Assembly (NCBI GenBank): GCA_025356395.1
Contig: JANXTA010000009.1
Location: 1 to 64,000, forward strand
DNA from: Betaproteobacteria bacterium
GTDB taxonomy: Bacteria > Pseudomonadota > Gammaproteobacteria > Burkholderiales > Burkholderiaceae_D
Direction: 5' to 3'
DNA: 64,000 nucleotides
In this document: positions 5,619 to 43,488 of the stretch, one piece after another
How the letters are laid out: each line of letters begins with the position of its first letter
How positions within the stretch are numbered: the stretch's first letter is position 1
The notes under the pieces: generated by a model
What the model was told of the DNA's origin: nothing
Databases searched by the model: none
What the model saw: the letters and a program-made list of their open reading frames with translations, nothing else
Program-made: the position numbers and the translations under genes

Positions 5619-6326
5619 TCAGCGTCCGATGCTTTTGCGCATGGCCCAGCGCCTGAGCGACCAGGCGATCACCAGCACGGCGACCGCGACACCGATCAGC
5701 GCGAACAGTCGCCCCCACCCCGGCTCGGCCAGCCACGCATCGAACTCGCTGGCCAGGCCCGCCATCACCGCGATCACCGGCAGGATGCCGATCGACGTGC
5801 CGAGGATGAAGTCCGCGAAGCCGATTCGCGATGCGCCGGCGATCACGTTCTGGACGGAATAGGGGATCGGCGTCAGCCGGACCAGCGCGACCGCGACGAA
5901 GCCGCGGCGTGCGAGCAGCCGGTTGAGGTTGTCGAGCCGCGAGCCGCCGCGTTTCGCGAGCCATTGGTCCACCGTGCCGCGTGCGCCGAAGCGCCCAATT
6001 GCATACACGACGCTTCCGTTGACCATCATTCCGGCGAAGGCATACAGGGTGCCGGGCCAGACGCCGAAGAGCAGGACCGTCGCGCCGATCACGAGCGTTC
6101 CGGGCGCGGCCATCAAGCCCGCGACGACGTGGAACGCGATCACTACCATGGGCGCCATCGGCCACGCCCGCACCTGCTGCTCGTAAGCGGCAAGCACGCG
6201 CGGATCGAGGAGGTGCGACAGCGGTGTCACGGTCCATGCGATGGCCAGCGCGACCAGCACGACTGCGATCGCCGCGGCCGCAGAGACGCGCGTGCGGAAA
6301 ACGGGAGAGGACGGTGAAGCCGGCAT
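5619..6326 (-). CDS. TVP38/TMEM64 (VTT domain) membrane protein
   Basis: Multiple TM segments; GARGTVDQWLAKRGG...RGFVAVALVRLTPIPYSVQNVIAGASRI matches the VTT core. Confidence 0.85.
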   Translation of the reverse strand: MPASPSSPVFRTRVSAAAAIAVVLVALAIAWTVTPLSHLLDPRVLAAYEQQVRAWPMAPMVVIAFHVVAGLMAAPGTLVIGATVLLFGVWPGTLYAFAGMMVNGSVVYAIGRFGARGTVDQWLAKRGGSRLDNLNRLLARRGFVAVALVRLTPIPYSVQNVIAGASRIGFADFILGTSIGILPVIAVMAGLASEFDAWLAEPGWGRLFALIGVAVAVLVIAWSLRRWAMRKSIGR

Positions 6327-40383: not shown

Positions 40384-41139
40384 ATGGAAGTCGTCATCGT
40401 CACCGGCGCGTCGAAAGGTCTCGGCGCCGCCATGGTCGAGCAGTTGCTATCCCCCGATCGTCATGTGATCGGCATCGCACGTTCGCCGAACCAGGCGCTG
40501 GCCGCGTCGGCCACTAGCAAGGGCGCCTGGCTCGACTGGTATCTGCAGGACCTCGCCGATGCGGACGCGAGCGATCGGCTGGCCGCGTCGATCTGCGCCT
40601 CGATGCCGCGTGACGCGACGCGTTATGCCCTGGTCAACAACGCCGCCCTGATCGAGCCGGTGGGTGCGGTGGCGACGCTCGAGTCTGCGGCAATCATGGC
40701 GGCGCTGAACGTCAATCTCGCGGCGCCGATGCTGTTCAGCGCGCGCTTCCTCGCGGCCACCGATGATCGCGCCATCGATCGCCGGATCCTCAACATCTCG
40801 TCCGGCTCGGGTCGCCACCCGATGGATGGCAACGGCGTGTACTCGGCGACGAAGGCGGGCCTCGACATGTTCACGCGCTGCATGAAGGCCGAGCAGCTCG
40901 AACGCCCCGAGGGTCGTCGTGCCCGCGTGGTCTCGCTGGCGCCCGGCGTGATCGACACCGACATGCAGGTCCACGCGCGCAGCCAGGACCCGGTGAAATT
41001 TCCGCAGACCCGCTACTTCGTGCAGATGAAGACCGACGGCGTGCTGGTCTCGCCCGAGGACGCCGCGCGCAAGATCCTCGGCTACCTGTTCCGCGACGAC
41101 TTCGGCGACACCGAGATCGACGACATCCGCAACGCGTGA
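40384..41139 (+). CDS. SDR family NAD(P)-dependent oxidoreductase
   Basis: VVIVTGASKGLGAAMVEQLL, NNAALIEPVG, ILNISSGSGRHPMDGNGVYSATKAGLDMFTR; in-frame ATG at 40384. Confidence 0.88.
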   Translation: MEVVIVTGASKGLGAAMVEQLLSPDRHVIGIARSPNQALAASATSKGAWLDWYLQDLADADASDRLAASICASMPRDATRYALVNNAALIEPVGAVATLESAAIMAALNVNLAAPMLFSARFLAATDDRAIDRRILNISSGSGRHPMDGNGVYSATKAGLDMFTRCMKAEQLERPEGRRARVVSLAPGVIDTDMQVHARSQDPVKFPQTRYFVQMKTDGVLVSPEDAARKILGYLFRDDFGDTEIDDIRNA

Positions 41140-41175
41140 GCCTGCATGTGAAGCGTGCATTGTCTTGTCCAGCAG

Positions 41176-41205
41176 ACTGTGACACAATCTTGACACTGTG
41201 ACACA
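41176..41205 (+). promoter_or_regulatory. Candidate TA operator: two exact 11-bp direct repeats ACTGTGACACA
   Basis: ACTGTGACACA at 41176-41186 and 41195-41205, 19 bp apart (about two helical turns), directly upstream of the antitoxin start. A TTGACA hexamer lies between them at 41190-41195. Confidence 0.55.
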
Positions 41206-41220
41206 TTGCTGGAGTTCTTC

Positions 41221-41484
41221 ATGCGTGAACTGAGCGTGCGCGAGATGCGGGCCGGTTACGGCGCCATAGCCGAGGCGCTGGCCACCGAGGGCGAGCTGAT
41301 CCTGACGCACCACGGCAAGCCCTTCGCCAAGGTCGTTCCGCTCACGGTCGGTGTCGATGTGCCGGATGCCGCCGCCGAGCAGCGCGAACGCGCGCGGGCA
41401 TGGGCCGCGCGTCAGCGCCGCTTCCTCGCAGGACAACCCGAACTGCCGCCGTTCGACTGGGACGAATTCCGCGCGGATCGATGA
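41221..41484 (+). CDS. Type II antitoxin, Phd/YefM (prevent-host-death) family
   Basis: MRELSVREMRAGYGAIAEALATEGELILTHHGKPFAKVVPLTVG, typical Phd/YefM fold; followed by a PIN-domain gene. Confidence 0.85.
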   Translation: MRELSVREMRAGYGAIAEALATEGELILTHHGKPFAKVVPLTVGVDVPDAAAEQRERARAWAARQRRFLAGQPELPPFDWDEFRADR

Positions 41485-41539
41485 AGTCGGCGGTCCGGCC
41501 CAGCCCCTGTTCCCCGCATGGCCTGTTCCCCATCCTGGT

Positions 41540-41977
41540 ATGGATTACGTCGACACCTCCGCTTTGTTGAAGGGTTACCTGGTCGAGGCGGGAAGCCCCG
41601 CGTTCGTGAGCTGGTTCGGCGAGGAGGCCGATCCGTACATCAGCCCGCTGGCGGTGATCGAATTCAAATGTGCGATCCGGCGCCGCGAGCGCGTCGGCCA
41701 GCTGACCCGACGTCGTGCCCGCGTCATCCTCGACCGTCTCGAAGAAAATCTGGTCGACGAGAGTCTCGGGCGGCTCGCATGGCACGATCGCGCCTTCGCA
41801 CTGGGCAACGATCTGATCGATCGTGTCGATCCGATTCCTTTGCGAGCGCTCGACGCCCTGCATCTCGCCATCGCACTCCAGCATCGCTGCACAGGCTTCG
41901 CCACCGCTGATCGCGTCCAGGCTGCAGCGGCCGAGCGCCTGGGCTTCACCGTACAAACCTTCTTCTCCCTCGAATGA
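41540..41977 (+). CDS. Type II toxin, PIN domain (VapC-like)
   Basis: [19 protein letters not shown]..., [55 protein letters not shown] at 41540. Confidence 0.87.
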
Positions 41978-43488
41978 ACACTCCCCCGACCGAGCGACCC
42001 GACGAGAACCAGAGCATCGCGGAGCGTCGCGGCAAACTGGCCGAGATCCGCGCACGTGGCGTCGCGTTCCCGAACGACTTCGTCCCGACGGACAAGGCTT
42101 CAGCCCTGCACGACGCCCACGACGCGCGCGAGCCCACCGACTTCGACGCCGAGACGGCGGTCGTCTCGATCGCGGGTCGCATGATGCTCAAGCGCGTGAT
42201 GGGCAAGGCCAGCTTCGCGACCGTGAAGGACGGCAGCGGCACGATCCAAATCTACGTGCAGACCGACGCGGTCGGCCCCGAGATTTATGCCGACTTCAAG
42301 CGCTGGGATCTGGGCGACATCGTCGCGGCGACCGGCACGCTGTTCAAGACGCGGACGGGCGAGCTGTCGATCAAGGCCACGTCGATCCGACTGCTCACCA
42401 AGGCGCTGCGACCGCTGCCCGACAAGTTCCATGGGCTCGCCGATCAGGAGGTGAAGTACCGGCAGCGCTACGTCGACCTGATCACCAGCGACGAGACGCG
42501 CCGAACGTTCGTCGCGCGCAGCAGGACGCTGTCGGCGATTCGCGGCTTCATGACCGGCCACGACTTCCTCGAAGTCGAGACGCCGATGCTGCATCCGATC
42601 CCCGGGGGCGCTGCCGCCAAGCCGTTCGAGACGCATCACAACGCGCTCGACATGAAGATGTTCCTGCGCATCGCGCCCGAGCTGTATCTCAAGCGGCTGA
42701 TCGTGGGCGGCTTCGATCGCGTGTTCGAGATCAACCGCAGCTTTCGCAACGAGGGGGTCAGTCCGCGCCACAACCCCGAGTTCACGATGATCGAGTTCTA
42801 TGCGGCGTACGCCGACTACCAGTGGCTGATGGGCTTCACCGAGTCACTGATCCGCGAAGCCGCGATCGCCGTCACCGGCAGCGCGACGCTGAACTACCAG
42901 GGCCGGCCGCTCGACCTGTCGCAGCCGTTCGAGCGCCTGACCATCACCGGCGCGATCCGCAAGTACTTCCCCGACTATCGCGACGAGGACCTCGCGGACA
43001 TCGCCTACCTGCGTACCGAGCTGAAGAAGAAGGGCGCCGCGATCGACCACGCGCCGCTGAAGAACGCCGGGCTCGGCGCGTTGCAGCTCGCACTCTTCGA
43101 GGATACCGCCGAGAGCCTGCTATGGAAGCCGACCTACATCGTCGACTACCCGATCGAGGTCTCGCCGCTCGCCCGCGAGTCCGACACGCGGCCGGGCATC
43201 ACCGAGCGCTTCGAGCTCTTCATGACCGGGCGCGAAGTCGCCAACGGCTTCTCCGAGCTCAACGACGCCGAGGACCAGGCCGCACGGTTTCGCAGCCAGG
43301 TCGCGGCCAAGGAAGCGGGCGACGAGGAGGCGATGTACTACGACGCCGACTACATCCGCGCGCTCGAGTACGGCATGCCACCGACCGGCGGCTGCGGCAT
43401 CGGCATCGATCGACTGGTGATGCTGCTGACCGACTCACCGAACATCCGCGACGTGATCCTTTTTCCGCACATGCGCAAGGAAGACTGA
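41974..43488 (+). CDS. lysS: Lysyl-tRNA synthetase (class II)
   Basis: [123 protein letters not shown]. Confidence 0.96.

Follow-up and report, generated by a model that had tools for sequence, protein, structure and literature searches.

The window, the whole 64,000-nucleotide stretch of DNA that was analysed, comes from an assembly of 4.47 Mb in 175 contigs. On its + strand, the gene of an SDR oxidoreductase (ending at 41139) is followed by an 81-bp spacer, a small antitoxin gene, a gap of 55 bp, the gene of a PIN-domain toxin and lysS, the gene of lysyl-tRNA synthetase (LysRS). The features of this locus are the following.

40384-41139, + strand: SDR-family oxidoreductase gene (PF00106, E 4.5e-31), co-directional with and 5' of the antitoxin gene; it adjoins lysS in many relatives lacking the toxin-antitoxin (TA) pair.
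41160-41188, + strand: best promoter-like match, TTGTCT-17-CACAAT, candidate antitoxin/lysS promoter (score 7.8; a consensus match only).
41178-41186, no strand assigned: operator box 1, TGTGACACA, of a paired box kept across the linked loci; the perfect pair occurs once in the window genome.
41197-41205, no strand assigned: operator box 2, TGTGACACA, 19 bp from box 1 and the other half of this perfect pair.
41221-41484, + strand: Phd/YefM-type antitoxin of 87 amino acids (PF02604; profile match to PDB chains).
41540-41977, + strand: PIN-domain (VapC-like) toxin of 145 amino acids (PF01850; catalytic acids; AlphaFold2/Foldseek).
41974-41977, + strand: ATGA overlap of the toxin stop and the lysS start, identical in a congener (G001).
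41974-43488, + strand: lysS, class II lysyl-tRNA synthetase, the sole LysRS of the genome (TIGR00499, NF001756).

The toxin gene ends with GAA TGA at 41972-41977 and the ATG of lysS is at 41974-41976, so that there is no intergenic space between the two genes, the lysS start falling within the final codons of the toxin gene. The coordinates of the antitoxin, toxin and lysS genes and the ATGA junction are exactly those of the original prediction, in which this junction was proposed to place lysS under TA control. Elsewhere in the window, at 5643-5738, ARAGORN calls an unusually long tRNA-Ala (CGC) of 96 bases.

The window antitoxin matches the Phd/YefM family PF02604 with an E-value of 4e-5, a match that, for this protein taken singly, falls short of the curated cut-off, and 22 of the 23 members of the antitoxin family match PF02604 at E<1e-3; the profile of this family matches the PDB chains 3dbo_A and 6jqy_A (antitoxin VapB46). 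The window toxin matches PF01850 (PIN) with an E-value of 2e-9, PF01850 is matched by all members of the toxin family (20/20), and the acidic quartet, D5, E41, D105 and D124, is invariant in the toxins of 20 relatives. The AlphaFold2 model of this toxin (pLDDT 95.9) has the PIN fold, and the Foldseek matches are VapC and FitB structures. The features of a type II Phd-VapC module are present, being the Phd/YefM antitoxin, the PIN quartet, a small antitoxin gene directly 5' of the toxin gene (the gap, measured at 23 loci, runs from -26 to 55 bp) and operator repeats over the promoter. Judged from these family and fold matches, the pair consists of an antitoxin of the Phd type and a PIN protein like VapC, which is predicted to be a ribonuclease. 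The same genome has a second PIN toxin (L115, G000:C155:45065-45487), which is about 31% identical and is not beside lysS; it is preceded by an apparent AbrB/MazE-type antitoxin, as read by eye.

The downstream gene matches TIGR00499 and NF001756 far above the cut-off, and its nearest named relatives are from Burkholderiales and other betaproteobacteria, on which basis the assembly is assigned to Burkholderiales. There is one class II lysS per genome in all 24 genomes tested, the copy of G033 being split over two contigs. A class I LysRS as a backup enzyme is rejected, as each match to PF01921 covers a piece of only about 35-100 residues (the best lie within long frames of about 850-1,250 residues), and none is a full LysRS; these pieces are read as parts of other class I synthetases.

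The linkage of the toxin gene and lysS recurs widely in the order. A toxin profile built from three sequences was run against 399 Burkholderiales genomes, and its 21 best matches (E<=1.8e-31, the window included) are all directly 5' of lysS; among nine weaker matches that were fetched, only one is adjacent to lysS, and this is a contig-truncated toxin copy. With this copy, the congener G001, which has the identical four-gene order and ATGA overlap, and G053, of a genus near the window by lysS and with the order prfB-antitoxin-toxin-lysS, the linked set comprises 24 genomes of 12 genera and nine families, in which the toxin and lysS genes are separated by -4 to 48 bp. In one family (f43), the toxin is found in 59 of 117 genomes, and all 29 loci that were fetched are linked to lysS; the junction is confirmed in 48 genomes of nine GTDB families, since five of these 29 loci repeat genomes of the 24-genome set. 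It is conceivable that a junction seen in an assembly of 175 contigs is a chance adjacency or an assembly artefact of one metagenome-assembled genome, and the original prediction had named confinement to a single assembly as a finding against it; the recurrence in 48 genomes, including single-contig ones, leads to the rejection of this explanation as virtually impossible. A single 4-bp overlap is ordinary; the recurrence of the lysS junction exceeds chance.

Linkage beyond the order is rejected, as the strongest class- and phylum-level homologues outside the order (L150-L153 and L181-L183) are ordinary Phd-PIN pairs away from lysS. The toxin tree, which has 143 columns and poor resolution, groups the lysS-linked toxins together and is compatible with the linkage having arisen once. 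In the lysS tree, in which the TA-less members of the other families are under-sampled, the linkage is found mainly in a family group outside that of the window, and in addition in the genus of the window and in G053.

Two TGTGWCACA boxes lie 5' of the antitoxin gene, 19-20 bp apart, and overlap or bracket the -10 element; an example of this arrangement from family f43 is GTGTCACATTGGCTATAATTGTGTCAC. If one mismatch is allowed in each box, the pair is found in 11 of 23 upstream regions, where 0.01 is expected from dinucleotide shuffles. Both boxes are perfect in the window, and in a whole-genome scan of 24 genomes the perfect pair is found in eight, once in each and always before this antitoxin gene, while the control matches none. 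Most of the unlinked homologues that were examined have a related but different box, TGTGCTACA. By analogy with other modules of this type, the paired boxes are inferred to be a candidate operator, bound by the antitoxin or by the antitoxin-toxin complex.

The promoter-like signals were scored as consensus matches only: in the window the score is 7.8 before the antitoxin gene versus at most 3.9 anywhere within the antitoxin and toxin genes, and in 19 of 23 loci the sigma-70-like score before the antitoxin gene is higher than in every segment inside the pair. The -10 element of the window (CACAAT) is weak, and a stricter consensus promoter scan of the window locus finds no site. These signals favour the antitoxin promoter over a start inside the pair, where an internal lysS promoter unlike the sigma-70 consensus is possible.

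The neighbouring genes limit the other sources from which lysS could be read. The gene before lysS in the TA-less relatives is nearly always co-directional, being prfB or the SDR gene in 86 of 104 loci, a count that includes the TA-bearing G001, wrongly placed among six opposite-strand cases. Family f43 includes 24 TA-bearing genomes in which the gene 5' of the antitoxin gene is on the opposite strand (mostly recQ, otherwise trxB-like, parA-like or urate-oxidase-like), which leaves the antitoxin promoter and the interior of the pair as the only possible starts for lysS transcripts. In the window and its congeners the upstream SDR gene is co-directional, as is prfB in several families, and read-through may therefore supply lysS in these genomes; in the window, such read-through would come from the SDR gene, 81 bp 5' of the antitoxin gene. 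In 24 loci lysS is co-directional with the pair, with a gap of -4 to 48 bp and without space for a promoter, as is characteristic of an operon driven by a TA promoter. Two other upstream neighbours were observed. In G479 a ParA-like ATPase gene (L124:257-1120) is divergent from the TA-lysS operon and may mark the border of an integrated element, and in G512 a JetD-like gene (L127:3-1223; DUF3322 and JetD_C, Wadjet) ends directly 5' of the operon.

It had been proposed that lysS is wholly or partly under a TA-regulated promoter, and that the ATGA overlap marks translational coupling. From the first proposal it stands that some or all lysS transcription very probably starts from the TA promoter, considering the operator, the promoter scores, the short gap, the sole LysRS and the opposite-strand neighbours. 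The second proposal is not upheld. The overlap occurs in some linked loci only, most having a short gap, and it does not take the place of a ribosome-binding site present in uncoupled homologues: across L004-L112, the lysS starts are mostly without a Shine-Dalgarno sequence, whether the TA pair is upstream or absent, and a Shine-Dalgarno match of at least four before lysS is found in 13 of 104 TA-less versus none of 24 TA-linked loci (p 0.13). The missing Shine-Dalgarno sequence is rejected as evidence of coupling, and the ATGA overlap is weak evidence for it, because lysS of the TA-less relatives also lacks such a sequence.

A further comparison is within one genus of family f43 (g137), in which the species have a common recQ-operator-antitoxin-toxin-lysS locus with three dissimilar toxin types. 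The nucleotide identities (in %) between versus within types are 85-86 versus 86 for recQ, 67-70 versus 69 for the operator spacer, 89-90 versus 91 for the first 40 antitoxin codons and 86 versus 87 for the 5' part of lysS, whereas they are 48-61 versus 84 for the rest of the antitoxin gene and 50-55 versus 81-86 for the toxin gene. A similar pattern is obtained when pairs are compared as proteins (lysS 91%, antitoxin N-terminal half 95%, toxin 32%). One block, made up of the toxin and the part of the antitoxin that binds it, is thus exchanged, and the DNA-binding half, the operator and lysS stay. At the level of these alignments, this demonstrates a cassette swap with sharp boundaries inside a fixed regulatory and lysS frame.

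The pair also appears to have been lost. In G002, a congener of the window genome without the pair, there are 55 bp between the SDR gene and lysS, and the 24 bases that immediately precede lysS agree with the 3' ends of the toxin genes of the window genome (G000) and G001 at 17 and 18 positions, respectively, in the toxin frame; none of 20,000 shuffles gives a match as good. In G036, of another family, a different small gene (L029:1064-1417; CZB-like by eye) occupies the slot between prfB and lysS, the flanks of which are about 86-90% identical to those of a TA-bearing congener, and the homology to this congener begins again at the final toxin codons, a short trace. Both are best read as losses of the pair, with traces of the toxin 3' end left before lysS.

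These losses and exchanges bear on what the linkage is for. The chief rival explanation is that the slot before lysS is a landing site, in which a selfish TA pair is kept or exchanged because its deletion disturbs lysS; the pair would regulate itself without a role in tRNA charging, and the supply of lysS would be about constant. This explanation agrees with co-transcription and differs on its purpose. It accounts for the patchy distribution of the pair, the swapped toxin alleles, the scars in G002 and G036 (where another gene fills the slot) and the fact that TA-less relatives manage with prfB or the SDR gene upstream of lysS. It is nevertheless somewhat unlikely, when considering that the linkage is widely conserved, that the operator and the DNA-binding half of the antitoxin are constant while the toxin changes, and that most unlinked homologues have different boxes.

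PIN toxins commonly cleave tRNA or rRNA, and the pair is linked to the sole LysRS, which could suggest a functional partnership: if the toxin cuts tRNA-Lys or another substrate the loss of which is relieved by extra LysRS, co-expression would buffer or reverse toxicity. MazF, of a different toxin family, is reported to cut tRNA-Lys in mycobacteria (PMC6620280, PMC7033543). Although the catalytic quartet is kept, about half of the bases or more differ between the toxin types of the same locus; this speaks against a single, fixed RNA target, and the partnership is improbable. A comparably low probability is given to a series of anti-phage defence alleles, in which phage selection swaps the toxin variants and lysS is only a safe flank for recombination. 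The sharp cassette boundaries and the diversity of toxins between species would fit such a series, and tRNA-cutting nucleases reportedly serve in defence elsewhere (PMC12409363). Against it, the toxins have no match among the PADLOC models, no homologue of the window toxin is found in the plasmid or phage collections, and the conservation of the operator is left unexplained; on the first two of these results, identity with a known defence gene and an origin from a mobile element, respectively, are rejected.

The explanation that best accommodates these data is a conserved antitoxin-toxin-lysS operon, in which the antitoxin promoter is probably the main or a shared promoter of the sole LysRS gene. 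Co-transcription of the three genes is well supported by the arrangement and signals of the locus, and TA regulation of tRNA charging is plausible by analogy. Following the precedent of Phd and VapB, the antitoxin, alone or complexed with the toxin, would bind the paired boxes and repress the promoter, and on loss of the labile antitoxin the antitoxin, toxin and lysS genes would be derepressed together. The consequence may be an effect on tRNA charging, or merely that the dependence of lysS on the promoter of the TA pair makes this pair hard to lose. More tentatively, and with doubt outweighing confidence, the TA repressor could be a dedicated regulator of an essential aminoacyl-tRNA synthetase: when translation falls, the antitoxin would be depleted and lysS derepressed, giving a LysRS feedback that senses translation and in which the toxin cassette is exchangeable.

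The usual view of chromosomal TA pairs is that they are dispensable and mobile, whereas here, in nine families or more, such a pair is coupled to what is probably the promoter of the sole LysRS gene, and the locus offers a natural setting in which the action of TA autoregulation on an essential gene can be tested. As the regulatory part (the operator and the DNA-binding half of the antitoxin) is split from the exchangeable toxin, the purpose of chromosomal TA pairs can be addressed directly at this locus.

The gene order, families, fold, catalytic quartet and operator boxes overlapping the promoter are those of type II Phd/VapC modules; unlike in these modules, the sole lysS follows without promoter space in many families of one order, and the toxin and the C-terminal half of the antitoxin are swapped in a fixed lysS frame. 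Aminoacyl-tRNA synthetases are also regulated by T-box elements or attenuation, which tie synthetase expression to the state of translation. The locus described here would provide a similar link, by a protein repressor of the TA type instead; an Rfam search of the window finds no T-box or other RNA element.

A TA pair tied to lysS was not found in the literature searched, which included few subscription papers and so gives a weak negative, and the only precedents found there are mazEF systems. In Staphylococcus aureus mazEF-sigB, the TA promoter drives the downstream operon by read-through (PMC3920265), as the sequence suggests for lysS, but that TA pair is not autoregulated (PMC3920265) and the operon after it codes for a sigma factor rather than an essential tRNA synthetase. 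In Escherichia coli mazEF-mazG, a third gene is co-transcribed with the TA pair (PMC3920265), as is probably the case here, but mazG acts on TA signalling, whereas lysS is a housekeeping gene and, as the sole LysRS gene, essential. The parts are known, namely Phd-VapC pairs and TA genes co-transcribed with sigB or mazG (PMC3920265); what appears to be new, as judged from the literature searched, is the conserved linkage of an essential tRNA synthetase gene to a TA pair that has a dedicated operator and an exchangeable toxin.
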